Positions 8,754 to 25,116 of a stretch of DNA of 64,000 nucleotides are shown here, one piece after another. Position 1 is the stretch's first letter. The number at the start of each line of letters is the position of its first letter. The notes under the pieces are model-generated. The model ran no database searches and had not been told where the DNA came from. It worked only from the letters and a program-made list of their open reading frames with translations. Made by a program: the position numbers and the translations under genes. Source of the DNA: Gemmatimonadaceae bacterium (GTDB lineage Bacteria; Gemmatimonadota; Gemmatimonadetes; Gemmatimonadales; Gemmatimonadaceae); contig WYBP01000008.1 in assembly GCA_011525845.1 (NCBI GenBank), forward strand, positions 310,001 through 374,000. The letters are read 5' to 3'.

Positions 8754-10781
8754 GTGGACCCGTCCCGCTACGCCGACCTCTTTCGCACCGAGAGCCGCGA
8801 CCAGCTCTCGGCGATCAACGCCGCCCTGCTCGCGCTCGAGCAGGGCGAGACGTCGCGCGAGCCGGTGGATGCGATCTTCCGCGGCGTGCACACGATCAAG
8901 GGGATGAGCGCGACGATGGGCTACGCCGCCGTCGCCGAGTTCTCGCACGAGCTCGAGTCGCTGCTGGACAAGGTGCGCTCGGGGGACCAGGGACTCACCC
9001 CCGACCTGATGGATGCGCTCTTCGCGGCGGCGGACGCGCTCGAGGCGGGTGTCGACGCCGCCAGCGAGTCTGCGGCGCTCACCCCCGCGATGCGCCGCGC
9101 GCTCGAGCGGCTGCACGACGTGGCGGGGGGGCGTTCGACGGCCGAGTTCCGGGTGATGCGCCCGTCGGATGCCGCGACGAGCGCGGCGGAGCTGGCCGCG
9201 GCCGCCGCGGTGGCGCTCCAGGCGGCGCTCGAGGGGCCGGGCACGCATGTGCAGGTGGTGCAGTCCGCCGCGGCGCTCCTCCCCGGTGTGCGCGCGTTCA
9301 TGGCGGTGCAGCGCCTGCGCGAGCTCGGCGAGGTGCACGCCGTCTCGCCGACCGTGGAGCAGCTGCAGGCGTCGACGACCCCGCAGATCTTCCGCGTGCG
9401 GCTCGAGACCTCGGCCGGCGACGCGGAGATCGAGCGTGCCGTGCGCAGCGCCGGCGACGTCGAGAGCGTCTCGATCGAGCGACGCGAGCCGCGTCCGGTG
9501 CCGGAGGGTGCCGCGGGTGTCGCGGGCGCCGCGGGCACCGGGGTCGTCGAGGATCGCCGGACCACCGCCGGCCGGCGTGCGACCGACGTGCCCCGCGCGG
9601 TGGACGAGTTCGGCCAGCCCGTGGAGCGGCGCGAGGCCCCGCGGGCGCGGCACGTGCGGATCGAGCTCTCGCGTCTGGATGCGCTGCTCAACCTGATCGG
9701 CGAGCTCGTGATCGTGCGCGGACGGCTGCAGCGGGAGACCCGGGGGGTGCCGCTGCCGGCGCTCCACGAGGCCGTCGCCGACGCGGCACGGCTGATCGGC
9801 GACCTGCAGACGGAGATCATGACGAGCCGGCTCGTCCCGGTGGGGCAGGTGTTCGACCGCTTCCCGCGGCTCGTGCGCGACACGGCGCGCGCGCTCGGCA
9901 AGGACGTGCTCTTCTCGATCGAGGGGAAGGAGATCGAGCTCGACCGGTCCGTGCTGGACGAGATCGGCGAACCGGTGGTCCACTGCCTGCGCAACGCGGT
10001 GGACCACGGGCTCGAGCTCCCCGAGGTGCGGGAGGCGGCGGGGAAGCCGCGCGCGGGGCGACTGATCCTCGCGGCCCAGCGCGACCGCGCGGCCGTGGTG
10101 ATCAGCGTGCGGGACGACGGGCGCGGGATCGACCGCGACCGCGTGCTCAAGCGCGCCCTCGCGCTCGGCATGGTGCCGCCGGGCACCGTGGTGCTCGACG
10201 ACGACGCCATGCTGCGCTGCATCTCGCACCCCGGGTTCTCCACCGCGGAGTCCGTCACCGGGGTGTCGGGGCGCGGCGTGGGGATCGACGCGGTGCAGGC
10301 GCGCACGCGTGCGCTCGGCGGCACCTTCGAGGTGAGCACGGTGCCGGGGGAGGGCACCACGGTCACCATCCGGCTCCCGGTGACGCTCGCGATCGTGCGC
10401 GCACTGCTCGCCCGGGTGGGGAACGAGCACTACGCGCTCCCGCTGGCCCACGTGCGGGAGACGATGGCGCACGGGCCCGCGGAGATCCGGCAGGTGCAGG
10501 GGCGGGACGTGCTGGTGCTGCGCGACGAGGTGCTGCCGATGCTGCGGCTGCGGGACGTGGTGCAGCTCCCGGAGGCCGCGGCGGCCCTGGCGGAGGAGAT
10601 CGTGGTGATCGAGCGCGGCGACCGCCGCGCCGGTCTGGTGGTCGATGAGCTCACGGGACAGGAGGATATCGTGGTCAAGTCGTTCGACGCGGTGCGGGAT
10701 GGCGCGACGCTCTTCAGCGGGGCGACCATCCTGGCGGACGGCGCGCCGGCACTCATCGTGGACGTGGGGAGCCTCCTGTGA
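8754..10781 (+). CDS. cheA: Chemotaxis histidine kinase CheA
   Basis: This 675-residue kinase is the hub of the chemosensory pathway. Domains in order are: Hpt (1-110) with the phosphorylated His46 in GVHTIKGMS; a variable region (about 120-290) that may hold the CheY/CheB-binding part; a dimerisation domain (about 300-360, RIELSRLDALLNLIGELVI); a GHKL ATPase (about 365-540, with VVHCLRNAVDHGLE and GRGVGIDAV); and a C-terminal CheW-like domain (about 545-675). The start is GTG at 8754; no clear Shine-Dalgarno sequence precedes it. The stop overlaps the cheC start by 4 bases. Confidence 0.95.
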   Translation: MDPSRYADLFRTESRDQLSAINAALLALEQGETSREPVDAIFRGVHTIKGMSATMGYAAVAEFSHELESLLDKVRSGDQGLTPDLMDALFAAADALEAGVDAASESAALTPAMRRALERLHDVAGGRSTAEFRVMRPSDAATSAAELAAAAAVALQAALEGPGTHVQVVQSAAALLPGVRAFMAVQRLRELGEVHAVSPTVEQLQASTTPQIFRVRLETSAGDAEIERAVRSAGDVESVSIERREPRPVPEGAAGVAGAAGTGVVEDRRTTAGRRATDVPRAVDEFGQPVERREAPRARHVRIELSRLDALLNLIGELVIVRGRLQRETRGVPLPALHEAVADAARLIGDLQTEIMTSRLVPVGQVFDRFPRLVRDTARALGKDVLFSIEGKEIELDRSVLDEIGEPVVHCLRNAVDHGLELPEVREAAGKPRAGRLILAAQRDRAAVVISVRDDGRGIDRDRVLKRALALGMVPPGTVVLDDDAMLRCISHPGFSTAESVTGVSGRGVGIDAVQARTRALGGTFEVSTVPGEGTTVTIRLPVTLAIVRALLARVGNEHYALPLAHVRETMAHGPAEIRQVQGRDVLVLRDEVLPMLRLRDVVQLPEAAAALAEEIVVIERGDRRAGLVVDELTGQEDIVVKSFDAVRDGATLFSGATILADGAPALIVDVGSLL

Positions 10782-11410
10782 GCGACGCCATGTATCCACC
10801 CGACGACCTGCGCTCGCTCAACGCCGCGCAGCTGGACGCCCTGCGCGAGGTGGCCAACATCGGCGCCGGTCACGCCGCCACGGCGCTCTCGCAGATGACG
10901 GAGCAGCAGATCATGATCTCGGTGCCCGAGCTCACGATCGCGGCCCTGGACGCGGTGCCGAACCAGATCTCGGCGCCCGAGGAACCCGTGGCCGCCGTGC
11001 TCATGCGCATGGAGGGGGACCTCACGGGCCTCACGCTGCTCGTCTTCCCGCAGCCGATCGCGATGCGCGTGGCGTCGCTCATGATGCGGCGGCCCGTCAC
11101 GGCGATGGGGGCGATCGAGGAGTCGGCGATCAAGGAGGCCGGCAACATCCTGAGCGCGGCCTACCTCAACGCGCTCGCCGACTTCATGCAGATGACGCTC
11201 CTCCCGTCGCCGCCGAGCCTGGCGATCGACATGAGCGACGCGATCTTCACGTCCACCTACGTGGCGAGCTCGCAGGGGGCCGCCTACGTGGTGTGCGTCG
11301 AGAGCGAGTTCCACCTGCAGGAGGCGTCCGAGCGCCTGCGCGGGTTCTTCCTCCTCCTCCCCGACCCGCCGAGCCTCCGGGCCATCCTGAAGGCCGTCAA
11401 CGTCGCGTGA
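10778..11410 (+). CDS. cheC: CheC-family CheY-P phosphatase
   Basis: This 210-residue protein has two copies of the CheC active-site pattern: LREVANIGAGHAATAL (about residues 21-36) and IEESAIKEAGNILSAAYLNA (about 113-132). CheC dephosphorylates CheY-P and in other species is stimulated by CheD, which is encoded at 21730. This fits the absence of cheZ. The start is GTG in the GTGA overlap with cheA; an ATG four codons later (10790) is an alternative. It overlaps the next gene by 4 bases. Confidence 0.9.
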   Translation: MSDAMYPPDDLRSLNAAQLDALREVANIGAGHAATALSQMTEQQIMISVPELTIAALDAVPNQISAPEEPVAAVLMRMEGDLTGLTLLVFPQPIAMRVASLMMRRPVTAMGAIEESAIKEAGNILSAAYLNALADFMQMTLLPSPPSLAIDMSDAIFTSTYVASSQGAAYVVCVESEFHLQEASERLRGFFLLLPDPPSLRAILKAVNVA

Positions 11411-14130
11411 CCGACCCGACCGCCACCCGGATCTCGGAGCGGGACCGCGAGGTCCTGCGGGGCTTCGCGCGTCGCATCGACCCGTCGGACGCGGGGGCGC
11501 ACAACAACCTCGGGGTCCTCTACTTCAACAAGGGGCTCTACCAGGAGGCGGTGGCCGCCTTCACGCAGGCGCTCGAGCTCGACCCGAAGATGCAGGTGGC
11601 GCAGCGCAACCTCGAGGTGGCCTACTTCAACACGGGGTACTACGACCTCCGCGTCTCCGAGCTGCGCGACCGCCTCCGCGTGCGCCCGGACGACCGGGAC
11701 GCGCGCTGGGAGCTCGGGCGCGCCTTCGCGCTGCTGGGCCAGCACGAGGACGCGATCCCGGAGTTCCGCGCGATCCTCGCCCTCCGGCCGCGCGACGTCG
11801 CGGCCCGCATCCAGCTCGGCCTCTCCGAGAAGGCCAGCGGGCGGCTGGGCGACGCGCTGCAGTGGTTCCGCGAGGCGCTCCTGCTCGACCCCGAGAGCTC
11901 GCTCCTCCACTTCTACCTGGGCGAGGTGCTCTACAACCAGGGCGCCTTCGACGAGGCGCTCACCTCCCTCCGGCGGTCGATCCAGTACAGCCCCGAGAAC
12001 CCGGACGCGCACTTCCTGCTCTCGTTCGTGCTCGGCGACATGGGTCAGCACGAGGAGGCGCAGGAGGCGTCGAAGCGGGCGGTGCGCCTCAACCCGTCGC
12101 TCTCGCGCGCGCAGGCCAACCTCTCGCTCGACCAGTACGACCCGCGCAAGTACGAGGCGCTCCTCCCGGGCCGCCAGTCGCGGCGCTCGCAGGCGCAGAT
12201 GGCGATCGCGGAGGGGGAGCCGCTCGCGAACTACACGCTCGGGCTGGCGTACCGGAAGCAGGGGTTCGTCGCCGAGGCGATGCGCGCCTACCAGATCGCC
12301 CTGGAGAAGGGGGAGGACCGGGCGCTGGTGGTGCAGGCGATGGCGGAGCTGCACCTCATCCAGAAGGAGCCGCTGCCGGCGATCGAGCTGTACGAGTCGC
12401 TGATCGCGGAGCAGGAGGAGAGTCCCAAGCTCTGGAACGAACGGGGCGTGGCGCTGCACCAGGCGGGGCGGCACCAGGAGGCCGCCGAGAGCTACGTGCG
12501 CGCGCTCGAGGTCGACGCCGGGTACGCGCTGGCGCGGAACAACCTGGGCGTGGCGCTCTTCCACGGCGGCGCGCCCGACGACGCGGTGGACGCGTTCCGC
12601 GATGCGCTGCGCTCCGACCCGCACCTGGTGAAGGCGCGGCTCAACCTCGCGCTCCTCCTCACCCGCGGCCGGCGCTTCCAGCTCGCCCTCGAGGCGTACC
12701 GCCAGGCGCTCGAGTCGGCGCCCGAGCAGGCGGTGGCGTGGAACGGCATCGGGATGGTGCTCGCGGAGCTGCGCAAGTTCGAGGAGGCGCGCACGGCGTT
12801 CGCGCGCGCCATCCAGGCCAAGCCCGAGTACGCGGAGGCCCACTACAACCTGAGCTTCACCCTCTCGAACCTCGGCGACTTCGACGGGGCACTGCGTGAG
12901 ACCAAGCTCGCGCTCGAGCTCGACCCGTACTACGTGGGGCAGAAGTTCGCGCTCGCGATCGACCTCGAGTTCGAGGATCCCGACCTCTCGGTGGTGCCCG
13001 AGCTCGGCGGGGAGCACCGGATGACGACGGACGTGGACACGTTCACGTTCGATCCCACCCTCCTCGACTCGCTCTTCACCGAGCTCGCGCCCGTGGACGA
13101 GGCGGCGGCCGAGCCGCTCGAGAGCGACCCCTACCGACTGGCGCTCGACTATCTCTCGAAGGGGCTCACCGACCGCGCGATGGCGGAGACGCGGCGCGTG
13201 CTCGCGCGCGGCGGCGACGCCGCCACCGGGAACATCCTGCTGGGCGAGGCGCTCGGCCGGCAGGGGGCCTGGGGGGACGCGCTGGAGCGGTTCGAGGCGG
13301 CGCGCGAGCGGGAGGCGGACCACCCGGACGCGCTCCGCGGCCAGACGCAGAGTCTGCTGATGCTCGGGCGCGGCGCGGAAGCGGGCGTGGTGGCCGAGGA
13401 GCTGATCGCCTGCTCGCCGGACGACCCGGATGCGCTCCTGCTGGTCGCCACCGCGCGCTTCGAGTGCGGCGACCCGGACGGCGCGCTGCGCGCGCTCGAC
13501 CACGCGCGGCGCGTCTCGCCCGAGCGGGCGGACGTGCTGCGCGGCATCGGCAACATCACGCGCGCGCTGGGGAACGTCGACGCGGCGGTCGCGGCCTACC
13601 GGCACGCCCTGACGCTCGACGCCGACTTCGCGGCCGTCCGCTTCGACCTCGCCAAGCTCCTCACCCAGCGCGGGGAGTTCGACGAGGCGGAGCGCGAGCT
13701 CCGCGCGGCGCTCGAGTCGGTGCCCACGTACGCGGACGCGACCCTCGCGCTCGCCGGCGTCCTGCGCAGCACCCGGCGGACGCGCGAGGCGCTCACGATG
13801 CTGATCGAGTTCCTCGAGCGCGACCCCTACCACTTCGACGCGCTGATCGCGCTCGGCGAGCTCCTGCACGAGGTCGGACGCACGCAGGATGCGGCGGTGG
13901 CGTTCCAGCGCGTGCTGCGCTTCGACGAGACGCACGTGGGCGCGATCTTCTTCCAGGGCGTGGTGCTCGCGGCGCAGGAGCGCTTCCGCGAGGCGCTGGC
14001 CTGCTGGCGGCGCGTGGCGCTGCTCGAGCCGCAGAGCGAGTACGCGCGCCGGGCGTTCCGCGAGTCGCGCAAGGCGCAGCACCGGCTCGAGGGGACCGAG
14101 CCCGACAGTGCCGAGGGGCGGGAGGGCTGA
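11407..14130 (+). CDS. Large TPR-repeat protein (about 907 residues)
   Basis: The protein consists almost wholly of tetratricopeptide repeats. The first clear unit is NNLGVLYFNKGLYQEAVAAF near residue 35, and repeats continue to LPRVALLEPQ-like helices near the end. A less regular acidic stretch around residues 525-575 splits the array into two superhelices. There is no signal peptide and no membrane segment, so it should be a cytoplasmic scaffold. It starts at GTG overlapping cheC and overlaps the PATAN gene by one base. In Myxococcus a TPR protein (SgmX) binds MglA; a similar scaffold role for the MglA at 16785 is possible but is only inferred from context. Confidence 0.85.
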   Translation: MTDPTATRISERDREVLRGFARRIDPSDAGAHNNLGVLYFNKGLYQEAVAAFTQALELDPKMQVAQRNLEVAYFNTGYYDLRVSELRDRLRVRPDDRDARWELGRAFALLGQHEDAIPEFRAILALRPRDVAARIQLGLSEKASGRLGDALQWFREALLLDPESSLLHFYLGEVLYNQGAFDEALTSLRRSIQYSPENPDAHFLLSFVLGDMGQHEEAQEASKRAVRLNPSLSRAQANLSLDQYDPRKYEALLPGRQSRRSQAQMAIAEGEPLANYTLGLAYRKQGFVAEAMRAYQIALEKGEDRALVVQAMAELHLIQKEPLPAIELYESLIAEQEESPKLWNERGVALHQAGRHQEAAESYVRALEVDAGYALARNNLGVALFHGGAPDDAVDAFRDALRSDPHLVKARLNLALLLTRGRRFQLALEAYRQALESAPEQAVAWNGIGMVLAELRKFEEARTAFARAIQAKPEYAEAHYNLSFTLSNLGDFDGALRETKLALELDPYYVGQKFALAIDLEFEDPDLSVVPELGGEHRMTTDVDTFTFDPTLLDSLFTELAPVDEAAAEPLESDPYRLALDYLSKGLTDRAMAETRRVLARGGDAATGNILLGEALGRQGAWGDALERFEAAREREADHPDALRGQTQSLLMLGRGAEAGVVAEELIACSPDDPDALLLVATARFECGDPDGALRALDHARRVSPERADVLRGIGNITRALGNVDAAVAAYRHALTLDADFAAVRFDLAKLLTQRGEFDEAERELRAALESVPTYADATLALAGVLRSTRRTREALTMLIEFLERDPYHFDALIALGELLHEVGRTQDAAVAFQRVLRFDETHVGAIFFQGVVLAAQERFREALACWRRVALLEPQSEYARRAFRESRKAQHRLEGTEPDSAEGREG

Positions 14131-15110
14131 TGGCGATCGAGGGCCCACTCCGCGAACTCGGCATCCACGACGTCTTCCAGCTCCTTGACCTGAGCCGGAA
14201 GACGGGGACGCTGCGCGTCTTCTCCGAGCTCCGCGACAACGCCGGCACGGTGCTCTTCGAGAACGGGAAGATCATCAGCGCCGCCATCCGGTCCAACCCG
14301 CACCGCATCGGCGACCTCCTCGTCCGCTCCGGGCGCCTCTCCGACGTCGACATGGCGCGCGCGCAGCGCGAGCAGGCGCAGGGGGACACGCGCCGGCTCG
14401 GGGAGATCCTCGTCGCGCTCGGCCTCGTGACGACGAAGGAGATCGAGCGGCAGATGCGGCTGCAGATCGAGGCCGTGGTCTTCGAGCTGATGTCCTGGCG
14501 GGAGGGGTTCTTCCGCTTCGAGGAGGGGCTGGACGAGGAGGAACTGCCCGATGCGGGCGTCCCCATCTCGACCGAGTCGCTGCTGATGGAGGGGGCGCGC
14601 CGGATCGACGAGTGGTCACGGATCGCCGACCGCGTGCCGAACCTCTCGGTGATCCCCTATCTCACCCCTCCGGACGAGGACCACCCGCCGATGCTCGACC
14701 TCCTGCCGCAGGAGTGGCAGGTGCTGGCGCTCATCGACGGCGAGCGCGACCTGCGCGAGATGTCGGCGACGCTCGCGATGAGCGAGTTCGACGTCGCGCG
14801 CATCGTGTACGGCATGGTGACCACCGGGGTGATCCGGCTGCGGCAGCCGGAGCGCGCCTCGCGCGTGGCCCCCCTGCCGCGCGACCCGCTCCCGGCCGAG
14901 CGGCTGACGCCGATCGACCAGACGGCGGAGCCGGTGCGGCGGGGCGCCGCCGCCTTCCGCCGCGGAGACCTGCGCGAGGGGATCGCGGTGTGGAGCGCCT
15001 TCGTCGCGGCGGCGCCGGGCTACCCGGGGCATGCCGCCATCGCGCAGGGCGTCGACGCGGCGACCATCCTCTGGGACGTGCTCGAGCGGGAGGCCCCCGA
15101 TGTCGGCTGA
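14130..15110 (+). CDS. PATAN (DUF4388) domain protein 1
   Basis: This 326-residue cytoplasmic protein has an N-terminal PATAN/DUF4388 domain (about 1-110: LRELGIHDVFQLLDLSRKTG, VLFENGKIISAAI, RIGDLLVRSGRLS). A type-II-secretion-E-like helical segment follows (RRLGEILVALGLVTTKEIE), then a winged-helix-like part (about 190-245) and a short helical tail. PATAN proteins are known adaptors in two-component and surface-motility signalling, where some bind CheY-like regulators. It shares the N-terminal architecture with the protein at 19287, pointing to an old duplication around the MglA core. It overlaps the TPR gene (TGATG) and the next gene by 11 bases. Confidence 0.8.
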   Translation: MAIEGPLRELGIHDVFQLLDLSRKTGTLRVFSELRDNAGTVLFENGKIISAAIRSNPHRIGDLLVRSGRLSDVDMARAQREQAQGDTRRLGEILVALGLVTTKEIERQMRLQIEAVVFELMSWREGFFRFEEGLDEEELPDAGVPISTESLLMEGARRIDEWSRIADRVPNLSVIPYLTPPDEDHPPMLDLLPQEWQVLALIDGERDLREMSATLAMSEFDVARIVYGMVTTGVIRLRQPERASRVAPLPRDPLPAERLTPIDQTAEPVRRGAAAFRRGDLREGIAVWSAFVAAAPGYPGHAAIAQGVDAATILWDVLEREAPDVG

Positions 15111-15933
15111 CGACATCCGCGCCCTCAGCGAGCAGCTCGCGGCGGACCCGCACAGCCTCGCCTTCCTCCCCCTCGCGGAGGCGCTGCTGAGCCGGGGCGA
15201 CCTGGAGCACGCGGCCCGCGTCGCGCAGCGCGGGGCGGTGCGTCACGCCGGGCGCACCGAGGCGCACGACCTCGTGGCGCGGATCGCGCTCGCCCGGGGG
15301 GACGAGGCACGCGCCGAGAGCGCGTGGGAGTCGGTGCTGGCGCTCGAACCGCGCTTCGGCACGGCGCACCGCGGCCTCGGGCTCGTGCGCTACCGGCAGG
15401 GCCGGCTGGATGAGGCGCTCTTCCACCTCACCCAGGCCGCCGCCGACGATCCCGCGGACGACGTGGTCCGGAGCGCGCTCGAGGCGGTGCGGGGCGTGGT
15501 CGAGGCGCGCGATGCCAAGGCGCCTTCCCCCCGGAAGTCGGCGATCGTGCCCGCGGACGTCGCGGGGGAGTCGGCCGCCGCGCTCTTCGATCCCATCCTC
15601 GAGGACTCGCGCCAGGTGGCGCTCCTGCTCGATGCGGAGGGCCTGATCGCGGCCGGGGAGTACCGCACCGCGGACGGCCGGGACCTCGGACCCGAGATCG
15701 GGGCGCACCTCACCGGGGTGAGCGACGAGGCCGACCGCGCGATGCGGCACTTCGGCTTCGGGGCCTGGACGCGGCTCGTCATCGAGACCGAGGCGGCGAC
15801 GGTGGCGATGGCACCGGTGGAGGACGCGATGGCGCTCGTCGCCGCACCCGCGGACGTGCCGCTCGGCTTCGCCCGCCGGACGCTGGAGCGCTGCCTCGGC
15901 GTCGCCCGCACCTGGCTCGGGAGCGCCCGATGA
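15100..15933 (+). CDS. TPR plus roadblock-like protein
   Basis: The 277 residues fall into an N-terminal helical half with about three TPR-like repeats (LAFLPLAEALLSRGDLEHAA, FGTAHRGLGLVRYRQGRLDE) and a C-terminal half (about 160-277) with the alternating strand-helix pattern of roadblock/LC7 domains (VALLLDAEGLIAAGEYRTAD, TRLVIETEAATVAMAPVEDA). The roadblock assignment is by pattern only. Roadblock proteins bind small Ras-like GTPases; MglB is the roadblock GAP of MglA. It overlaps the preceding gene by 11 bases and the next by 4. Confidence 0.65.
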   Translation: MSADDIRALSEQLAADPHSLAFLPLAEALLSRGDLEHAARVAQRGAVRHAGRTEAHDLVARIALARGDEARAESAWESVLALEPRFGTAHRGLGLVRYRQGRLDEALFHLTQAAADDPADDVVRSALEAVRGVVEARDAKAPSPRKSAIVPADVAGESAAALFDPILEDSRQVALLLDAEGLIAAGEYRTADGRDLGPEIGAHLTGVSDEADRAMRHFGFGAWTRLVIETEAATVAMAPVEDAMALVAAPADVPLGFARRTLERCLGVARTWLGSAR

Positions 15934-16271
15934 GCGCCTACTCGCCGCTCATCGCTTCGGTCACGCGGCACCGCGGCGTCTCCGCGTGCCTCCTCGTCTC
16001 CGAGGAGGATGGCATCGTCGTCGAGGGGACGGCGCAGATCGGCGTGAGCACCGCGGCCTTCGCCGCGCTCACCGCGTCGCTCTACCGCAAGTCGGCGCGC
16101 GCCTCGGAGGCCGCGGGGTTCGGCACCGTGGCGTTCTTCGAGCTCGAGGCCGAACGGGGGCGCGTGCTGGCGGCGGGGCGGAACGGGCTGCTGATGGTCG
16201 CCGTGGCCGAGCCCCGGGTGAACGTGGGGCTGCTGCGGGTGGAACTGCTCCGTGCCGCGGAGTCGTTCTGA
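15930..16271 (+). CDS. Small roadblock/LC7-type protein (possible MglB-like regulator)
   Basis: A compact 113-residue protein with roadblock spacing: a first strand-turn-strand (VSACLLVSEEDGIVVEGT), a central helix (AAFAALTASLYRKSARAS), two more strands (TVAFFELEAERGRVLAAG, LLMVAVAEPRVNVGLLRVE) and a C-terminal helix. That is the fold of MglB, the activator of MglA. The order roadblock, roadblock-like, MglA supports this role. Sequence identity to MglB was not tested. It overlaps both neighbours (ATGA upstream, one base downstream). Confidence 0.65.
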   Translation: MSAYSPLIASVTRHRGVSACLLVSEEDGIVVEGTAQIGVSTAAFAALTASLYRKSARASEAAGFGTVAFFELEAERGRVLAAGRNGLLMVAVAEPRVNVGLLRVELLRAAESF

Positions 16272-16747
16272 TGCGCCGCTCCCTCGCGCTCGGCTGGGCG
16301 GACGCGCCCCTCAAGCAGTTCGTGGACGACGCACGGCTCCAGCTCGCGGTGCTGATGCACACGAGTGGCCAGGTGCTCGCGCAGGTGGGCTTCCGGCGGT
16401 CACTCGACGTCCAGACCGCGTGCGCGCTCTCGGCCGCGATCAACGCCTCGGCGGAGCAGCTGGGACTCCTGGTGGACGGCACGCCCTTCCGCGGACTGCA
16501 CTACGCCGGGACCACGCGCCAGCTCTGGCTGGGCCAGGTCGGGTCCCGGGAGGACCCGTTCGTGCTGCTCGCGGTCTTCGACGGCGAGAGTTCATTGGGT
16601 ATCGTTCAGCTGTACCTGGAGGAGCTGCGCACCGCGCTCGGTGCGGCGTTGCCGGAGGCCGTGCTCGAGGAGGAGCCGCCGGCGCTCGCCGAGGATTTCG
16701 AGCGCGAGCTGAACCGCAACCTCGCCTCCCTCTTCGGGAGGGCGTGA
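16271..16747 (+). CDS. Roadblock/LC7-like protein adjacent to MglA
   Basis: This 158-residue protein is again of roadblock type by pattern: FVDDARLQLAVLMHTSGQVL (first strand pair), a helix around CALSAAINASAEQLG, strands LHYAGTTRQLWLGQV and PFVLLAVFDGESSLGI, then a helix and an acidic tail (EEEPPALAEDFERELNRNLA). It could be the partner or GAP of the GTPase encoded 37 bases downstream. Alternatively it could dimerise with the 113-residue protein to form a hetero-roadblock complex. The start is the ATG right after the TGA of the previous gene. Confidence 0.6.
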   Translation: MRRSLALGWADAPLKQFVDDARLQLAVLMHTSGQVLAQVGFRRSLDVQTACALSAAINASAEQLGLLVDGTPFRGLHYAGTTRQLWLGQVGSREDPFVLLAVFDGESSLGIVQLYLEELRTALGAALPEAVLEEEPPALAEDFERELNRNLASLFGRA

Positions 16748-16784: not shown

Positions 16785-17387
16785 GTGAGCCTCGTCAACT
16801 ACGCGACGCGCGAGATCACCTGCAAGATCGTCTACTACGGCCCCGGGCGGTCGGGGAAGACGACCAACCTGCACTACATCTACGGGCAGGTCCCGAACGA
16901 CCGGAAGGGGCAGATGGTCTCGCTCGCGACCCAGACGGACCGCACGCTCTTCTTCGACTTCCTGCCGATCGACCTGGGCACGATCTCGGGCTTCACCACC
17001 CGCTTCCAGCTGTACACGGTGCCGGGCCAGGTCTACTACCAGACCACGCGCAAGCTCGTGCTGCAGGGGGCCGACGGCGTCGTCTTCGTCGCCGACAGCC
17101 AGGCGCGGCAGCTCGCGGAGAACATCGAGTCGATGCAGGACCTGCACGCAAACCTCGCCGAGCAGGGCGTGGACGCGCGCACCCTGCCGCTGGTGATGCA
17201 GTACAACAAGCAGGACCTGCCGCCCGAGATCATCACCCCGGTGGCGGAGCTGGACGAGGCGCTGAACTTCCGCGGCGTCCCGTCGTTCCCGGCGGACGCG
17301 CTGCATGGCCCGGGCGTCTTCGAGACGCTGCGCGGGATCTCCGAGCTCGTGCTGCGGCGGCTGAGCACCGGTCAGGGCGCGGGCTGA
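16785..17387 (+). CDS. mglA: MglA-type small Ras-like GTPase
   Basis: This 200-residue protein contains only a GTPase domain. The P-loop is GPGRSGKT (19-26), the G3 region is TVPGQ as in MglA proteins, and the guanine-specificity motif is NKQD. MglA in Myxococcus and Bdellovibrio sets the leading cell pole for gliding and pili and is switched by MglB (GAP) and a RomR-based GEF. The start is GTG at 16785 (VSLVNYATREI), matching the usual MglA N-terminus (fNya.rEi..KIVYYGP). The next gene starts one base after the stop. Confidence 0.95.
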   Translation: MSLVNYATREITCKIVYYGPGRSGKTTNLHYIYGQVPNDRKGQMVSLATQTDRTLFFDFLPIDLGTISGFTTRFQLYTVPGQVYYQTTRKLVLQGADGVVFVADSQARQLAENIESMQDLHANLAEQGVDARTLPLVMQYNKQDLPPEIITPVAELDEALNFRGVPSFPADALHGPGVFETLRGISELVLRRLSTGQGAG

Positions 17388-17388
17388 G

Positions 17389-19287
17389 ATGCGGCTCGAC
17401 CCGCGCCTGACCTTCGAGCGCCTCGTCGTGGGCTCGGCCAACCGGCTCGCGGCGGCCGCCGCGCGCGCGGTGGCCGAGGCGCCCGGCACCACCTACAACC
17501 CGCTCTTCATCTACGGCGGGTCCGGGCTCGGCAAGACGCACCTGCTCACCGCGGTGGGCCACCGGCTCCAGGAGCTCCAGCCGGCCGCCGAGGTGTTCGC
17601 GCTCACGCTCGACGAGTTCTCCGAGCAGTGGCACGCCGCGGTCTCGGCGGGCGAGACGCACGCGTTCGGCCGGCGCCTGGGGCGCGTGGACCTCCTGCTC
17701 CTCGACGACCTCCAGTTCCTCACGGGCCGGCGCGAGATGCAGGCGGAGCTGCTGCGTCTCTTCACCGCCATGCAGGAGGAGGGGCGCCAGATCGTCTGCA
17801 CCAGCGACCGGCCGCCGAGCGAGATCGCGGACGTGGACGAGCGGCTGATCCAGCGGCTGTCGGGCGGACTCGTCGTGGACGTGAGTGTGCCGGAGTTCGA
17901 GGCGCGCGTGGCGATCCTCCGGGCCGCCTGCGCCGAGCGCGGGGTCTCCGTGCCGGACCGTGCGCTCGACACGCTCGCCCAGCGGGGCGTGAACTCCGTG
18001 CGCGAGCTGCAGGGGGCCCTCAACCAGTGGCTCGCGCGCGAGACCCTCGGCAGCCCCTCCGCACGGCACACGCCCTTCTCGACCCCGGTCATCGCGCCGC
18101 GCTCCTCGAGCGAGTTCCTCAGCTTCCTCGACGACGTCACGAGCGTGGTGCAGTCGCACGTCGAGTCCTGGCAGGTCCGGCTCCGCGAGGTGATCGCGTA
18201 CTGGCAGGGCGAGGGGTACCGCACCGCCGTGCTCGAACGGGCGCTCGCCCTGCCGAAGGACCCCGACGTCAACGCCCTCGTGGAGATGTTCGCGAACGCG
18301 GTCGAGCACCTGCGCGACCTCGAGGCGAAGGCGACGGCCATCGATGCGGAGCTCGGCGGGCACGAGCTCTTCCGCGACCCGGAGCGCCTGGCGCAGGCCG
18401 AGGACCTGGTGGAGGAGGCGCTGGCCGGCGAGCGGCCGCCCGGCGGCCCGAACCCGTCGTTCACGCGCGCGGAGTTCGAGGTCGGCGCCGCCAACCAGCT
18501 CGCGGTCCACGCCGCCGACGCCGTGATCGCCACCCCGGCCACGCGCTACAACCCCCTCGTCATCACCGGGAGCAGCGGGGTGGGGAAGACCCACCTGCTG
18601 CACGCGATCGGGAACGCGATCGCCGAGGCGTCGCACGGGGAGTCGCGCGTGGCGTGCGTGCATGCCCAGGTGCTGGTGGACGAGCTGATCGCCGCGATCC
18701 AGGACGGGAGCGTGGAGCGCTGGCGGAACCGCTATCGCGCGGCCGACGTCCTGCTGGTGGACGACATCCAGTTCCTGGCCGGGAAGGAGCGCACGCAGGA
18801 CGAGTTCTTCCTCGTCTTCAACGCGCTCACGGAGGCGGGGAAGCAGATCGTGCTCGCGAGCGACCGCGGGGTGTCGGAGATCCCGGAGCTCGCGTCGCGC
18901 CTGCGCTCGCGCTTCGAGGGCGGACTCACCGTCGAGATCCTCCCCCCGGACCGTCCGCTGCGCGAGCAGCTGGTCGCGCGGTTCCTCACGGCCCTCGGGC
19001 GCCCCGCCACGCCCGAGCTCCTCGACGTGGTGTGCGATCCCACCGTGCAGAGCGTGCGCGAGCTGATCGGCGTGGTGAACCGGCTGGCGCAGGCGTCCGA
19101 GTCGCGGGGCGTGGACCTCGATGCCGCGCTCGCGCGGGAGGAGCTCGGCCTCGGGGCCGACGCCTCCGCCACGATGGCCCCCGCCGCGGCCGCGCTCGCC
19201 GCCGGGGACCGCACCTTCCTCGACCGCGAGCGCGTGGTCTGGGACTGGCCGGACATCGGCGGGCGCCTGATCGAGGAGATGCGCTGA
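17389..19287 (+). CDS. Tandem DnaA/Hda-type AAA+ ATPase protein without DNA-binding domain
   Basis: This 632-residue protein has two complete DnaA domain-III-like ATPase modules. Module 1 (about 8-220) has Walker A GGSGLGKT (43-50), Walker B LLLLDD (102-107), sensor I VCTSDRPP, an arginine in the box VII position (RLIQRLSGG) and sensor II SVRELQGALN. Module 2 (about 356-570) has Walker A GSSGVGKT (394-401), Walker B VLLVDD (454-459), box VII RLRSRFEGG and sensor II SVRELIGVVN. Both look catalytically intact. They are joined by about 100 residues that look helical (240-345). The C-terminal 60 residues hold no helix-turn-helix, so domain IV, which recognises DnaA boxes, is missing, as is domain I. 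It is therefore not the replication initiator. It lies one base after mglA and overlaps a PATAN gene, implying a role in the MglA/Che pathway. Confidence 0.85.
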   Translation: MRLDPRLTFERLVVGSANRLAAAAARAVAEAPGTTYNPLFIYGGSGLGKTHLLTAVGHRLQELQPAAEVFALTLDEFSEQWHAAVSAGETHAFGRRLGRVDLLLLDDLQFLTGRREMQAELLRLFTAMQEEGRQIVCTSDRPPSEIADVDERLIQRLSGGLVVDVSVPEFEARVAILRAACAERGVSVPDRALDTLAQRGVNSVRELQGALNQWLARETLGSPSARHTPFSTPVIAPRSSSEFLSFLDDVTSVVQSHVESWQVRLREVIAYWQGEGYRTAVLERALALPKDPDVNALVEMFANAVEHLRDLEAKATAIDAELGGHELFRDPERLAQAEDLVEEALAGERPPGGPNPSFTRAEFEVGAANQLAVHAADAVIATPATRYNPLVITGSSGVGKTHLLHAIGNAIAEASHGESRVACVHAQVLVDELIAAIQDGSVERWRNRYRAADVLLVDDIQFLAGKERTQDEFFLVFNALTEAGKQIVLASDRGVSEIPELASRLRSRFEGGLTVEILPPDRPLREQLVARFLTALGRPATPELLDVVCDPTVQSVRELIGVVNRLAQASESRGVDLDAALAREELGLGADASATMAPAAAALAAGDRTFLDRERVVWDWPDIGGRLIEEMR

Positions 19288-20906
19288 TGGCGATCCGCGG
19301 CTCCCTCAAGGAGGCCTCGCTCCCCGACGTGCTGCAGCTCCTCGCGATGGGGAAGAAGAGCGGCTGCCTCTCGGTCACGCACCGGAACAACTTCGGGTCG
19401 ATCTTCTTCGACTCGGGGAAGATCTGCTACGCCTCGATCGTGAACCGGCGCGACCGGCTCGGGGACATCCTCGTGAAGAGCGGGCTCCTCACGCAGGCGC
19501 ACCTCGACGAGGTGGTCGGCATGCAGGCCAAGGCGCGCGGCCAGCGCCTCGGCGAGCTGCTCGTGGAGAAGCAGATGATCACGCGCGAGAACCTGCACGC
19601 GCAGATCCGGATCCAGATCGAGGAGGCCGTCTACTTCCTGTTCACCTGGGCCGAGGGGACCTTCAACTTCGAGTCGGACATCCGGCCGGAGGAGCAGGAC
19701 TTCCTGGTCTCGATCAACCCCGAGTCGCTCCTCCTCGAGGGCGCGCGGCGGGTGGACGAGTGGAGCCTGATCGAGAAGAAGGTGCCCTCGTTCGACCTCG
19801 TGTTCGAGCTCGACCGGCGGCGCCTGGTGGAGAGCGACGCGCACCTGACGAGCGAGCAGAAGGCCCTCGTGCCGCTGATCGACGGGCGCCGGGACGTCGC
19901 CACGATCGTCGACGACTCCGGGTTGGTGGAGTTCGAGGTGGGGAAGGCGCTCTACGGCCTCGCCACGGCGGGGTTCCTGCACCGCGTGGGGAAGTCGAAG
20001 CCGCAGGAGGCCAACACCGCGGACGTGCGGGTGGAGGAGCACCGCAACCTCGGCCTCGCGTTCTACAAGACCGGGATGCTCGACGAGGCGCTGCGCGAGT
20101 TCCGGCGCGTCGTGGAGCTCCGCCCGGATGACCTCGGGGCGCGCTTCCACCTCGGGCTCTCGCACCTGCGGCTCGGGAAGTGGAGTGACGCCCTCTCCGA
20201 CTTCGAGACCGCGTCGCGCCAGCGGGGCGCCAAGGCCGCCGTCTTCCTCAACCTCGCGCTCGCGCAGGAGCGGCTCGGCCGGCTGGACGACGCGCAGGCC
20301 TCGCTGCAGGAGGCGCTGATCCGCGGCGGCGAGGGGGAGCCGCGCGTCCACCTCTCGCTCGGCATCCTGCACCTGCGCCAGGGGCTCTTCGCCGACGCGG
20401 ACAGCCGGCTCCGCCACGCCCGTCCGCTCTATGGCGACAAGGCGCCCGCGGCGGTCTGGTTCCACTGGGCCGGCCTGGCCGCCGCCCTCGCGGGACACCT
20501 CCCGAATGCGATCGCGGTGCTCCGCGAGGGCGTCAAGGCGCATCCGCATGCGGCGGCGCTGCACAACAACCTCGCCGTCGCCCTCGCGCTGGACGGCCAG
20601 GGCGACGACGCGCTGCACGCGATCGACCTGGGGATCACCGCGGACCCGGGGATGGCGCAGCTGCATCGCAACCGCGGCGACCTCCTCCTCGAGGCCGGGC
20701 GGCACGAGCAGGCGCTCGACGAGTACCGGCGCGCGGTGAAGCAGCACGAGACCCTCGGCCCCGAGGTGTGGGCGCGCATCGGCTCGCTCCTCTCGTCCCA
20801 GGGCGACATCCTCGAGGCCGAACGCGCCTGGGAACGGGCGCTCGTGCTCGACCCTTCGCATCGCGAGGCCCGGCACCGGCTCTCGACCTCGCGCGGGGAT
20901 CGGTGA
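19287..20906 (+). CDS. PATAN (DUF4388) domain protein 2 with C-terminal TPRs
   Basis: Of 539 residues, the first 240 or so repeat the architecture of the protein at 14130: PATAN domain (LPDVLQLLAMGKKSG, IFFDSGKICYASI, RLGDILVKSGLL), a GspE-N-like helix bundle (RLGELLVEKQMITRENLHAQ) and a winged-helix-like region ending near HRVGKSK. Residues 250-530 are about seven TPR units (HRNLGLAFYKTGMLDEALRE, NLALAQERLGRLDDAQASL). It is cytoplasmic and probably a protein-binding adaptor. The start is ATG in a TGATG overlap with the tandem ATPase gene, and the stop overlaps the cheR GTG start. Confidence 0.85.
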   Translation: MAIRGSLKEASLPDVLQLLAMGKKSGCLSVTHRNNFGSIFFDSGKICYASIVNRRDRLGDILVKSGLLTQAHLDEVVGMQAKARGQRLGELLVEKQMITRENLHAQIRIQIEEAVYFLFTWAEGTFNFESDIRPEEQDFLVSINPESLLLEGARRVDEWSLIEKKVPSFDLVFELDRRRLVESDAHLTSEQKALVPLIDGRRDVATIVDDSGLVEFEVGKALYGLATAGFLHRVGKSKPQEANTADVRVEEHRNLGLAFYKTGMLDEALREFRRVVELRPDDLGARFHLGLSHLRLGKWSDALSDFETASRQRGAKAAVFLNLALAQERLGRLDDAQASLQEALIRGGEGEPRVHLSLGILHLRQGLFADADSRLRHARPLYGDKAPAAVWFHWAGLAAALAGHLPNAIAVLREGVKAHPHAAALHNNLAVALALDGQGDDALHAIDLGITADPGMAQLHRNRGDLLLEAGRHEQALDEYRRAVKQHETLGPEVWARIGSLLSSQGDILEAERAWERALVLDPSHREARHRLSTSRGDR

Positions 20907-21733
20907 GCACCGACCCCACCGACGACGCGGGCTTCCGGGCGTTGACCGCGAAGATCGCCGCGGAGCGCGGCTTCGGGTGCGCGAACTACAAGGACGGATG
21001 CCTCCGGCGGCGCATCGCCGTGCGCATGCGCGCGCGCGGCACCCCCGACTTCGGGACGTACCAGTCGCTCCTCGACCGGGACCCGGCGGAGTACGAGCTG
21101 CTCCTGGACGCGCTCACGATCAACGTGACGAAGCTCTATCGCGACGCGGAGGTCTGGGGGGAGGTCGCGCGCGTGGTGGTGCCGGCCCTCTGGTCGCTGC
21201 CGGAGCCGCGCCTCGACATCTGGAGTGCGGGGTGTGCCTCCGGCGAGGAGCTCTACACGCTGGCGGCCCTCGTGCACCAGCACGCGGAGCGCACGGCCAC
21301 GCTCCCGCGCCTCCGCTCCGTGCGCATCCGCGGGAGCGACATCGACCGCGCCTCGCTCGACGCGGCGCGCCGGGGTGCGTACGCCACCGACGCGTTCACC
21401 GAGATGCCGGTGGACCTCCGCGTCCGGTACTTCTCGCCCACGGACCCGCACCTGGCCGCGCCCGAGCTCCGGGCGCTCGTGGACGTGGAGCGGCGCGACC
21501 TGCTCGGCGAGCCGGCGCCCGAGGGCGGGTGGCACCTCATCTGCTGCCGGAACGTGATCATCTACTTCGACCGTCGCAGCCAGGAGCCGCTGCTGCGCCG
21601 GTTCCATGACGCGCTCGTGCCGGGCGGCTTCCTCGTGCTCGGCAAGGTCGAGACGCTGATGGGCCCCTCGCGCGCCCTCTTCGAGGCGGTCGACGCGCGC
21701 AACCGGATCTTCCGCCGGCCGGTGGCACGATGA
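20903..21733 (+). CDS. cheR: Chemoreceptor methyltransferase CheR
   Basis: This 276-residue enzyme methylates receptor glutamates using S-adenosylmethionine. It has the N-terminal helical subdomain (FRALTAKIAAERGFGCANYK, CLRRRIAVRMRARG) and the SAM domain (WSAGCASGEELYTLA, RGSDIDRASL, WHLICCRNVIIYFD, LVLGKVETL). The start is GTG overlapping the preceding stop. It is the first gene after the Mgl/PATAN block and runs on into cheD with ATGA overlap. Its substrates, the methyl-accepting receptors, are not encoded in this window. Confidence 0.95.
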   Translation: MSTDPTDDAGFRALTAKIAAERGFGCANYKDGCLRRRIAVRMRARGTPDFGTYQSLLDRDPAEYELLLDALTINVTKLYRDAEVWGEVARVVVPALWSLPEPRLDIWSAGCASGEELYTLAALVHQHAERTATLPRLRSVRIRGSDIDRASLDAARRGAYATDAFTEMPVDLRVRYFSPTDPHLAAPELRALVDVERRDLLGEPAPEGGWHLICCRNVIIYFDRRSQEPLLRRFHDALVPGGFLVLGKVETLMGPSRALFEAVDARNRIFRRPVAR

Positions 21734-22209
21734 CGGACCAGCACGTGCGCATCGCCCACCACGCCGTGGCGCGCGGGAGCGGCCGGCTCGTCACCATCGG
21801 GCTGGGCTCGTGCGTGGCGATCGCGCTGCATGATGCGCGCTTCCGCGTGGCGGGGCTCGCGCACGTGCTCCTCCCCGACCCGAGCGTGGCGCGCGACGGG
21901 ACGAATCCCGCCCGCTTCGCCGCCACGGCGGTGCCCCTCCTCCTCGCGGACATGCAGGCGATGGGGGCACGCGGCGCGATCACGGCGAAGATCGCCGGCG
22001 GCGCGGCGCTCTTCGGCGCGATGCTGGGCGCGACGGGGGGACAGATGGGCGCGCGCAACGTCGCGGCCACCCGCGCGGCGCTCGCGGCGGCGGGGATCCC
22101 CCTCCTCGCGGAGGAGGTGGGCGGGAGCGCCGGCCGCAGCGTCGCGCTCGACGTGAACTCCGGGATGCTCACGGTGCGCTCGGTGCGCGGGGGCGAGCAT
22201 GTCCTCTGA
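21730..22209 (+). CDS. cheD: Chemoreceptor glutamine deamidase CheD
   Basis: This 159-residue protein has the CheD catalytic Cys in TIGLGSCVAIALHD (about C28), the His in VAGLAHVLLPDP (about H45) and the conserved Thr region AITAKIAGGAALF. CheD deamidates receptor glutamines and, in species with CheC, binds it and stimulates its phosphatase activity. CheC is present at 10778. It overlaps cheB by 11 bases. Confidence 0.92.
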   Translation: MTDQHVRIAHHAVARGSGRLVTIGLGSCVAIALHDARFRVAGLAHVLLPDPSVARDGTNPARFAATAVPLLLADMQAMGARGAITAKIAGGAALFGAMLGATGGQMGARNVAATRAALAAAGIPLLAEEVGGSAGRSVALDVNSGMLTVRSVRGGEHVL

Positions 22210-23272
22210 GGAGCGCCGCGTGCTCGTCATCGAGGACAGCGTGCTCCTCGCCGAGGTGCTGCGCGACCTGATCGACGGTCTCGACGGGTTCCGCGTGGTC
22301 GGGACCGCCCGCGACGGCGAGGAGGGACTCCGCCTGGTGCACCAGCTGGATCCCGACATCGTGACGCTCGACATCGAGATGCCCGGCCTCGACGGGCTCG
22401 CGGTGCTCGGCTACATCATGAGCGAGGCGCCGCGTCCCGTGGTGATGGTGAGCGCCGCCACCACGCGCGGCTCGGTGGACCTCACGATCCGCGCGCTCGA
22501 GCTCGGCGCGGCGGAGTTCGTGCGGAAGCCCGTCGGCACCTCGCGGGAGGCCTGGGCGGGGAGCGTGCGGCGGATCGACGAGGCGCTCCGGGCGGCGGCG
22601 CAGATGAACGTGCTGGGCGTGAGCATGCTGGCGCGGCCGCGCCTGCGGACGCCCGCGGAGCTCCCGCGCAGCTCGCGGCGCGCGACCGCGGCGGTCGCCA
22701 TCGCGAGCTCCACCGGCGGACCGCGGGCGCTCGCCGAGATCATCCCCGGCTTCGGTCCCGACCTCGACGCCGCGCTCCTCGTGGTGCAGCACATGCCCCC
22801 GGGATTCACGGCCGGCCTCGCCCGCCGGCTGGACCAGCTCGCCTCGATCCCGGTGCACGAGGCGGTGCATGGCGAGGCGATCGAGTCGGGACGCGTCTAC
22901 CTCGCCCCCGGCGGGAACCACATGACGGTGACCGCCACGCCGGCGGGACGCGCGATCGCGTTGTCGGATGGGCCGGCGGTGCACGGCGTGCGTCCGGCGG
23001 CGGACCCCTTGTTCCGCTCCGTCTCCGAGCATTTCGGCGCGCGCGCGGTCGGCGTCGTCCTCACGGGGATGGGGCGCGACGGCTCCGCCGGGCTGCAGGC
23101 CATCCGCCGCGCCGGGGGCGGGGCCGTGGTCCAGGACCGGGCGACCTCGGTGATCTATGGGATGCCGCAGCAGGCGCTGCGAGAGGCGGGAGCGGACCAC
23201 GAGGCCCCGCTCGGCGGGGTCGCCGCGTCGGTGACGGCGCTCCTGCGCACGCGCACCGGGGTGCCCGCATGA
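22199..23272 (+). CDS. cheB: Chemotaxis methylesterase/response regulator CheB
   Basis: This 357-residue protein has an N-terminal receiver (1-125; phospho-acceptor D58 in TLDIEMPGLDGL, Lys in FVRKPV) and a C-terminal methylesterase. The catalytic triad blocks are Ser in IASSTGGPRAL, His in VVQHMPPGFT and Asp in LTGMGRDGSAGL. It removes methyl groups from receptors and opposes CheR. It starts 11 bases before the end of cheD and overlaps the next cheW by 4. Confidence 0.95.
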   Translation: MSSEERRVLVIEDSVLLAEVLRDLIDGLDGFRVVGTARDGEEGLRLVHQLDPDIVTLDIEMPGLDGLAVLGYIMSEAPRPVVMVSAATTRGSVDLTIRALELGAAEFVRKPVGTSREAWAGSVRRIDEALRAAAQMNVLGVSMLARPRLRTPAELPRSSRRATAAVAIASSTGGPRALAEIIPGFGPDLDAALLVVQHMPPGFTAGLARRLDQLASIPVHEAVHGEAIESGRVYLAPGGNHMTVTATPAGRAIALSDGPAVHGVRPAADPLFRSVSEHFGARAVGVVLTGMGRDGSAGLQAIRRAGGGAVVQDRATSVIYGMPQQALREAGADHEAPLGGVAASVTALLRTRTGVPA

Positions 23273-23775
23273 GCCGCGGCGCCACGGAAGCGACGCCCCT
23301 CGTCGGCCCCGCGTCCGCGCGCCGCGTGGCGGGCGACCAGCACCGCGTGCTGCTGGCGCGCGTGGCGGGCGAACGATTCGCCTTCCCGCTGGCGGAGCTG
23401 CAGGAGGCGGTGGACGCACCCGAGATCATCGCGGTGCCGCTCGCCGCGGCCGGGTTGGCCGGCCAGTGCGCGCACCGGGGGCGCCTGCTCCCGGTCTTCG
23501 ACGCCGGCGTGCTCCTCGGCGTCCCGCGCCGGGGAGGAGCCGGCGCCCTGCTGGTGCTCGACGGGACCGGGGGGCCGTTCGGGCTCCTGCTCGACGACGT
23601 GGAGGACATGGTGGCGGCGCCCCGGCGCGCCTGGCGCGCGCTGCCCGCGGCCGAGGGGCGCGTGGGGTCGGTGCTACGCGCCCTCCTCGCGCTCGAGGAT
23701 GGGATCGCGGCGCTCGTGGACGTGGGCGTCCTGCGCGCCACGGTCGCCGACCGACTCAGGACGGAGGCACGATGA
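23269..23775 (+). CDS. Divergent CheW-domain protein (second of three)
   Basis: This 168-residue CheW-like protein (HRVLLARVAGERFAFPLAEL, then RLLPVFDAGVLLG) is less conserved than the other two. The usual GxxNLRG motif is replaced by GQCAHRGRLLP. It may couple a special receptor or act as a CheA array modifier. It overlaps cheB (ATGA) and the third cheW (ATGA). Confidence 0.75.
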   Translation: MSRGATEATPLVGPASARRVAGDQHRVLLARVAGERFAFPLAELQEAVDAPEIIAVPLAAAGLAGQCAHRGRLLPVFDAGVLLGVPRRGGAGALLVLDGTGGPFGLLLDDVEDMVAAPRRAWRALPAAEGRVGSVLRALLALEDGIAALVDVGVLRATVADRLRTEAR

Positions 23776-24260
23776 CGACGGGCACGGCCGACAAGCGACA
23801 GCTGGTGACGTTCGAGGCGGCGGGGGAGCTCTTCGCCGCCGACATCTTCGCCGTGGAGCGGGTGCTGCGCTACACGCCCCCGCGCCTCCTGCCGAACGCG
23901 GCGCCCTGGCTGCGCGGCGTGATCGCGCACGGCGCGGAGACCATCCCGGTGGTCGACCTCCGCGAGCGGCTGGGGCTGCCGGCGGCGGCGTCGACGGAGG
24001 ATGCGCGCATCCTGGTGATGCTCGTCGGCGAGGTGCGGGTCGGCGTCATCGTGGACGCGGTGCTCTCGGTGCGCACCGTGCCGGCGACCGCGCTGGAGGC
24101 GCCCCCCGCGATCTATCGCGGGCTCGCGCGTGAATACCTGGAGGGGATCGTGCGGCAGGACGAGGCGATCTTCGTCGTGCTCGCCGCCGGACACCTCCTC
24201 ACCACAACGGAGCGGATCGAGATGGAACGGATGCTGGCGACGGAGGGGCGCGATGCCTGA
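23772..24260 (+). CDS. cheW: CheW-domain chemotaxis adaptor (third of three)
   Basis: This 162-residue CheW domain shows the pattern QLVTFEAAGELFAADIFAVE, PNAAPWLRGVIAHGAETIPV, VDLRERLGL and VGVIVDAVLSV. A C-terminal helix (about 135-162) carries TTTERIEMERML. Three CheW genes in one operon suggest that several receptor classes share CheA, or that the array has special geometry. It overlaps the next gene by 8 bases. Confidence 0.85.
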   Translation: MTTGTADKRQLVTFEAAGELFAADIFAVERVLRYTPPRLLPNAAPWLRGVIAHGAETIPVVDLRERLGLPAAASTEDARILVMLVGEVRVGVIVDAVLSVRTVPATALEAPPAIYRGLAREYLEGIVRQDEAIFVVLAAGHLLTTTERIEMERMLATEGRDA

Positions 24261-25116
24261 CGAGACACTGGAGGCGTACCGCGCACGCTACCGGGCGATC
24301 GAGGGTCGCCTGGAGGCGGGGCTCGCGGACGCCGATCGCGCCAAGGTGAAGGCCGACATCGTCGGGCTCTTCAAGGCCGTGGAGGCGCAGATCGCCGAGC
24401 TCACCACGTTCAAGGACGAGATCAGGACGCTCGTCGACAAGTGGAAGGCGCAGCAGGCCGCCGAGGGGAGCTCCGCGCCCGAGTTCTCCGGGGAGCGGCC
24501 CGTGGTGCACGCCGACCACATCGGGGCGAGCACCTTCATCGAGAAGGGGTGGAGCCGGCTCTCGCTCGGCGACCACGAGGGCGCGGAGCAGGCGCTGCTC
24601 AAGGCGATCGAGCTCTCCCCGGGGGACCCGCAGAGCGAGGCGCTCCTCGGCTGGGCGCAGATGCTGCAGGCCAAGTACGACGACGCGCTGATGAACTTCC
24701 AGAAGGTGCTCATCCGCGAGCCCACCAACGCACTCGCCCGCATCAATGTGGGGTACATCTGCCTGAAGAAGCGGATCTTCGGCGAGGCGATCGAGCACCT
24801 GTCGAAGGCGATCCGCCTCGACAACGACCGGAAGGCCACCCTGTACGCCCACTTCTACCTCGGGCTGGTGTACCTCGAGCGGGAGATGTACGAGGACGCG
24901 CAGACCTTCTTCCAGAAGACGCTCGCGCTCGGACCGAACCTGATCGAGGCCCACTTCGAGCTCGGGCGCGCGCACTGGTTCAACGGGGAGACGGAGGAGG
25001 CCAAGCGCGCGTGGGCGGCGGGGTTCGCCGCCAACAAGTTCAACCCCTGGGGGAAGCGGTGCGCGGAGACGCTCAAGCTGGTGGAGGGGGGAGGGGAGCC
25101 GCCGCGCACGCTCTGA
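24253..25116 (+). CDS. TPR protein ending the chemosensory gene run
   Basis: This 287-residue cytoplasmic protein has an N-terminal charged helical part (1-75; DADRAKVKADIVGLFKAVEA, KDEIRTLVDKWKAQQ) that could form a coiled coil. It is followed by about five TPR units (GWSRLSLGDHEGAEQALLKA, LARINVGYICLKKRIFGEA, FYLGLVYLEREMYEDAQTFF). It overlaps the third cheW by 8 bases and its stop overlaps the next frame. The function is unknown; its position in the operon suggests an accessory scaffold of the pathway. Confidence 0.8.
   Translation: MPDETLEAYRARYRAIEGRLEAGLADADRAKVKADIVGLFKAVEAQIAELTTFKDEIRTLVDKWKAQQAAEGSSAPEFSGERPVVHADHIGASTFIEKGWSRLSLGDHEGAEQALLKAIELSPGDPQSEALLGWAQMLQAKYDDALMNFQKVLIREPTNALARINVGYICLKKRIFGEAIEHLSKAIRLDNDRKATLYAHFYLGLVYLEREMYEDAQTFFQKTLALGPNLIEAHFELGRAHWFNGETEEAKRAWAAGFAANKFNPWGKRCAETLKLVEGGGEPPRTL

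Follow-up and report, generated by a model that had tools for sequence, protein, structure and literature searches.

A DnaA-type AAA+ pair within a proposed adaptor family of the chemosensory/MglA cluster in Gemmatimonadota

The window analysed here, a 64,000-nucleotide stretch of DNA from a Gemmatimonadaceae bacterium, encodes a protein with two DnaA-type AAA+ modules (M1 and M2) that belongs to a phylum-wide family residing in a chemosensory/MglA gene cluster, with a split between the modules into a putative catalytic one and a putative arginine-finger donor. As judged from sequence, the invariant part of this family would be a bidentate adaptor, with the product of the adjoining gene, a PATAN-TPR protein, as its nearest constant partner. 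The established roles of DnaA-type AAA+ modules lie in replication and replication control; should our reading be true, this would be, to our knowledge, the first known case of a DnaA-type machine reused for motility-type signalling.

Architecture of the putative adaptor and its gene cluster

The stop-free reading frame at positions 17389–19287 (+ strand) translates into 632 amino acids. Its orthologues lie in open frames and share 72–81% identity within the genus and 44–61% in other genera, which establishes that the gene is real; the relatives that bear a name are Gemmatimonadaceae metagenome-assembled genomes. The window genome (3.58 Mb) has its own single-module DnaA on a different contig (C9). 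The adaptor comprises the following elements:

17389–19287, + strand: two-module DnaA-like adaptor (632 aa; orthologues found)
17389–18048, + strand: M1, DnaA domain III-type AAA+ module with a complete ATP site (residues 1–220; AlphaFold2 pLDDT about 80–95)
18103–18450, + strand: helical linker domain with W261, W272, GEGYRT and FRDP (residues 239–354; from alignments and model)
18109–18162, + strand: N-motif helix around EFLSFLDDVTSVVQSHV (residues 241–258; kept in linker-only and mini forms)
18451–19152, + strand: M2, DnaA domain III-type AAA+ module (residues 355–588; ATP site lost in some relatives)
19204–19284, + strand: C-terminal tail ending VVWDWPDIGGRLIEEMR (residues 606–632; predicted disordered)

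The initial annotation had described two complete DnaA domain III modules lacking domains I and IV, and profile searches bear this out. Pfam PF00308 (Bac_DnaA) matches two stretches of the protein (E 2.6e-105 for the whole protein), and motif residues are present in both modules: K49, D106/D107, D140, R152/R156 and R205 in M1, and K400, D458/D459, D492, R504/R508 and R557 in M2. DnaA_N and Bac_DnaA_C are both absent among the Pfam and NCBIfam matches listed for the protein, M1 begins at residue 2–3, and the match to TIGR00362 is confined to positions 103–321 of the 437 of DnaA, which correspond to domain III. The TIGR00362 score of 483.5 exceeds the cut-off of 343.9 solely by addition of two domain III matches, so that annotation pipelines would call the adaptor DnaA; such summed scores constitute an annotation trap. 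The structure prediction proposed in the initial annotation gives, for the full-length protein in AlphaFold2, two DnaA-type modules and most of the linker at good confidence, with low-confidence stretches at residues 221–242, 250–258 and 591–632. M2 is followed by just a low-confidence, apparently disordered tail, with no domain IV helix-turn-helix among the listed Pfam matches. VIA-align superposition on DnaA domain III yields Z scores of 31 for M1 (against Bacillus subtilis DnaA) and 29 for M2.

The linker domain, modelled alone with a pLDDT of 86.7, is specific to Gemmatimonadota within the genomes searched. Comparison of its model with the PDB returned no convincing match, with at best an E value of 4.4 in Foldseek and a Z score of 3.9 in VIA, a result that does not by itself establish a new fold. 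The C-terminal tail gives one significant match per genome, always at the adaptor locus (10 of 10 genomes), and a search of these ten genomes for further genes bearing it found none that was convincing.

The adaptor gene is embedded in a long cluster of genes on the same strand:

8754–11410, + strand: CheA and CheC (Pfam)
11404–14130, + strand: long TPR protein (Pfam, synteny)
14130–15110, + strand: PATAN (DUF4388) protein (Pfam, synteny)
15100–15933, + strand: TPR protein with a weak roadblock/LC7 match (Pfam, synteny)
15930–16271, + strand: roadblock/LC7 protein (PF03259), MglB-like (Pfam, synteny)
16271–16747, + strand: small conserved protein RB3, no Pfam match (syntenic in most lineages)
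16785–17387, + strand: MglA, a small GTPase of Group 1 type by its TVPGQ signature (Pfam)
19287–20906, + strand: PATAN (DUF4388)-TPR protein (Pfam), the most constant neighbour of the adaptor
20903–25116, + strand: CheR, CheD, CheB, two CheW and a TPR protein (Pfam, synteny)

The mglA stop codon (17385–17387) and the adaptor ATG (17389) are separated by a single base, and the adaptor TGA (19285–19287) has one base in common with the PATAN-TPR ATG (19287), in agreement with the spacing and overlap first described. The window MglA contains YTVPGQ, the Group 1 G3 signature (TVPGQ; PMC4316618). The 40 regions compared, from different families and orders, repeatedly show one arrangement: CheA-CheC-TPR-PATAN-roadblock proteins-MglA-[adaptor]-PATAN/TPR-CheR-CheD-CheB-CheW-TPR. 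The inference that the DnaA ATPase fold has been recruited to an MglA/chemosensory cluster is borne out, and this recruitment is conserved in the phylum. The link to mglA itself needs qualification: the same gene order is found in most lineages, but in one family (f5) only the adaptor and PATAN-TPR genes remain, and the sole MglA there is a second, more distant one. PATAN-TPR is thus the constant neighbour, and at most loci, for nearly every form of the adaptor including the smallest, its start codon abuts or overlaps the adaptor stop codon by 0–1 base.

Several other features of the cluster proteins were observed. The small conserved protein encoded before mglA has a conserved terminal helix, EDFERELNRNLASLFGRA (16690–16744), of a pattern similar to that of the adaptor N-motif, and the two helices are perhaps one docking site. 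A helical insertion in PATAN-TPR (19287–20906) scores 39.0 against an NCBIfam cut-off of 38 for an MshE-related c-di-GMP-binding motif, and the other PATAN protein (14130–15110) scores 36.3, just under that cut-off; PATAN proteins of this cluster may bind c-di-GMP. The second MglA (G000:C21:169038-169514, L217, in the window genome), 51–64% identical, occurs in almost all of the Gemmatimonadota genomes tested, those without the cluster among them.

Unequal modules

M1 and M2 are, on the pattern of residue conservation, not equivalent and would have different jobs. Residues were counted over 68 double proteins in B. subtilis DnaA numbering. The ATP site of M1 is almost invariant, with the Walker lysine K157 in 66, D214 in 67 and the sensor II residue R313 in 66 of the 68 proteins. 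I190 and K222 of B. subtilis DnaA are essential for binding of single-stranded DNA (PMC6669920), and in M1 these positions are replaced: I190 by H in 69% and K222 by R, Q or H, with E at position 224 in 86%. The corresponding residues of the window protein are H82, R114 and E116 in M1, and I434 and K466 in M2, which retains the B. subtilis residues at both positions. Across the family M2 keeps these DnaA-like residues (I190 in 85%, R at 224 in 91%), and docking on M1 leaves them unexplained.

In M2, box VII R260 and the arginine finger R264 (R504 and R508 of the window protein) are each present in 66/68 proteins. Among the residues essential at the filament interface of B. subtilis DnaA (R202, R206, F218, H231, R264, L269, G317 and R321; PMC6669920), R202 and L269 are retained in 97% of M2 modules. 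In ten M2 modules the Walker lysine is gone, in most of these along with other ATP-site residues; all ten retain R260, R264, R202 and L269, and the partner M1 is intact in every case (10/10). This split fits the pattern expected with M1 as the ATPase and M2 as the arginine-finger donor. The initial annotation had proposed a two-module switch, and an intramolecular switch is consistent with the split, but its two modules would not be interchangeable. M1 itself retains its arginine finger (R264) in 63/68 double proteins, and does so also beside an M2 that is unable to bind ATP; this suggests M1–M1 contacts or oligomers instead of a simple closed pair.

A tandem duplication of a recent DnaA was rejected as an origin, as M1 and M2 form separate old clades and share 34% identity within one protein. 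In a quick maximum-likelihood tree, all M1 modules group in one clade (SH-aLRT 99) and all M2 modules in another (99), with DnaA apart (80); ordinary DnaA genes of other phyla, taken from a single-protein scan, served as the outgroup.

Distribution and reduced forms

A linker profile search over 394 Gemmatimonadota genomes detects the family in 238 of them, and the two-module architecture and its neighbours are found across families and orders of the phylum, the outcome of the homology search suggested at the outset. With the same profile the family was found neither in 82 genomes of a KSB1-phylum sample nor in 189 genomes of a Myxococcota sample, and 29 mixed genomes gave nothing but one chance match, these searches having no positive control within those phyla. 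The chance match, in Thermaceae (L211, E 0.004), sits in a histidine kinase frame. One contig of 3.2 kb that bears a Planctomycetota label (isolate SJ480; L096) carries an adaptor copy of 78% identity and is probably misbinned Gemmatimonadota DNA. Four smaller genomes of the same genus (G001, G010, G012 and G013; 1.8–2.3 Mb) have neither the adaptor nor the cluster-type MglA. A literature search returned no published family of this architecture and no paper in which DnaA-type modules are connected to PATAN, to MglA or to a chemosensory cluster.

The adaptor exists in forms of decreasing size, all at an equivalent locus: 68 double forms, 12 to 14 single-module forms and 2 linker-only forms. Two apparent single forms were excluded, one at a contig end (L064) and one whose frame continues into another gene (L087). 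The latter (G160:C1) is a 1002-aa open frame in which M1 and the linker are followed by peptidase-like sequence, a possible fusion or frame error. A separate M2 gene was sought in the genomes with single-module forms and was not found in those tested. Among the 11 genomes that have cluster-type MglA and no linker match, eight possess an ORF of 65–83 aa exactly between mglA and PATAN-TPR, two have a contig break inside an M1-like module, and in one (G114, L230) mglA is followed by a peptidase-like ORF, with the adaptor absent within the 1.4 kb examined. Both end motifs, EFxxFLxDIxxxVxxRV (N-motif) and EWPxxxxRMIEEMR (tail), are present in the mini ORFs, and profiles built from larger members only recovered exactly the mini ORFs among 2199, with E values of 1e-3 to 4e-8 and the next at 0.2 or above.

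Only the N-motif helix and the C-terminal E-W-P...IEE tail are constant across all forms. The AAA+ modules are not the core of the protein, given orthologues with one module, with none and with the ends only at the equivalent locus. In a tree of MglA and PATAN-TPR rooted on the second MglA, double forms are basal, with single-module, linker-only and mini forms nested inside; the order of loss comes from a quick method with SH-aLRT values only and a root provided by MglA alone. With double forms at the base of this tree, the AAA+ modules were probably lost several times, with retention of the two ends of the adaptor. As some single-module forms have degenerate arginine fingers, ATP control of the adaptor is not universal. 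The series of double, single, zero-module and mini forms at one locus makes the contribution of the ATPase directly testable.

A possible mechanism, its alternatives and known systems

The reading that we favour, tentatively and at slightly less than an even chance, is that an ATP-gated DnaA-type pair, with M1 as ATPase and M2 as finger, controls the two ends of the adaptor, whose partner is most likely PATAN-TPR. Two docking elements, the N-motif helix that follows M1 and the E-W-P...IEE tail that follows M2, would bind cluster partners, most likely the PATAN-TPR protein of the overlapping next gene, and in the double form the internal AAA+ pair would set their spacing or exposure. M1 would bind and hydrolyse ATP, and M2 would dock intramolecularly and place its arginine finger on the M1-bound nucleotide, in a contact like that between neighbouring DnaA subunits in a filament or that of Hda on DnaA. 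With ATP the pair would close, and on hydrolysis it would open, resulting in a slow timed switch in which DNA plays no part. Its output would probably be exerted on type IV pili or on polarity, via PATAN-TPR and MglA. This is the most plausible output because cyanobacterial PATAN proteins act on pili and pilus motors (PixE and PilB1; PMC7690835) and PATAN genes have previously been noted near mglA (PMC4316618). PilT-family ATPases are found in 53/53 genomes tested, with or without the adaptor gene, and do not discriminate for a pilus output.

Alternatively, the AAA+ pair could regulate MglA directly as a GEF, GAP or effector, with the end motifs docking on MglA or roadblock partners. The single base between mglA and the adaptor gene is in keeping with this, as is the joint occurrence of an adaptor form and cluster-type MglA in nearly all genomes tested, relatives with reduced genomes having neither. 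However, the constant overlap involves PATAN-TPR, family f5 has the adaptor and PATAN-TPR in the absence of cluster-type MglA, and G114 has cluster-type mglA with no adaptor, so that we regard direct regulation of MglA as unlikely. A scaffold, in which both modules assemble ATP-dependent head-to-tail filaments that hold the chemosensory, PATAN and MglA proteins in an array, seems distinctly unlikely. DnaA forms filaments of that type, both modules carry a finger and, in most double forms, an ATP site, and the M1 finger persists where M2 has no ATP site; yet M1 has lost the AID-1-type R206 and H231, and the mini form would do an equal job with no polymerisation.

A link to the cell cycle would arise if the finger face of M2 docked on the cell's own DnaA-ATP, in an Hda-like manner, or on single-stranded DNA, thereby coupling replication to polarity or motility. 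M2, although more distant from DnaA overall than M1 (35% versus 40% identity), retains the filament residues R202, R206, R264 and L269 and the single-stranded DNA-motif residues I190, K222 and R at 224. A PF00308 search of the window genome turned up no stand-alone Hda-like gene, and 15 relatives show only a few weak matches beyond DnaA and the adaptor. Against these points, the modules have probably been lost repeatedly with retention of the cluster, the adaptor gene is not near dnaA, and most of the conserved interface of M2 would be accounted for by docking on M1, which leaves this link improbable. It is a shade less probable that M2, in addition to its place in the pair, is a finger donor for the cell's DnaA or binds single-stranded DNA, and so couples DnaA-ATP and replication to MglA/PATAN surface behaviour. 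That the protein is a DnaA paralogue in decay, or an incidental one, without any function that depends on nucleotide, as might be read from the degenerate M2 ATP sites and single-form fingers of several lineages, is very improbable in view of M1 catalytic residues about 97% conserved across families and of the conserved synteny and tail.

The adaptor modules, from these sequence comparisons, belong to the DnaA clade, but the tests applied identify the protein as a whole neither with DnaA nor with Hda. DnaA domain III shares with them the AAA+ fold (VIA Z 29–31), Walker A and B motifs, box VII, arginine finger and sensor II, at about 35–43% identity. Unlike DnaA, the adaptor has two modules per chain, neither domain I nor domain IV, an M1 that lacks the residues for single-stranded DNA, and an additional linker and tail; it is encoded at a chemosensory locus in a genome with a separate DnaA. 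Hda/HdaA resembles it in being a DnaA-type AAA+ protein with no DNA-binding domain, and the arginine finger of Hda, which acts on another DnaA-type ATP site, is an analogy for M2. Hda consists of one module and binds the clamp through its N-terminus, and the adaptor scores 155.8 against the Hda model TIGR03420, below the cut-off of 194.8. The MglA-MglB/RomR-Frz system of Myxococcus xanthus is like this locus in its Group 1-type MglA, roadblock proteins, CheA-type signalling and TPR proteins, whereas here the genes form one cluster; we know of no DnaA-type AAA+ protein in the M. xanthus system. In the cyanobacterial proteins PixG, PixE and LsiR, as proposed here, PATAN is a signalling output, there on type IV pili (PMC7690835); the cyanobacterial arrangement is PATAN-CheY, and that of the Gemmatimonadota cluster is PATAN-TPR with a DnaA-like adaptor.
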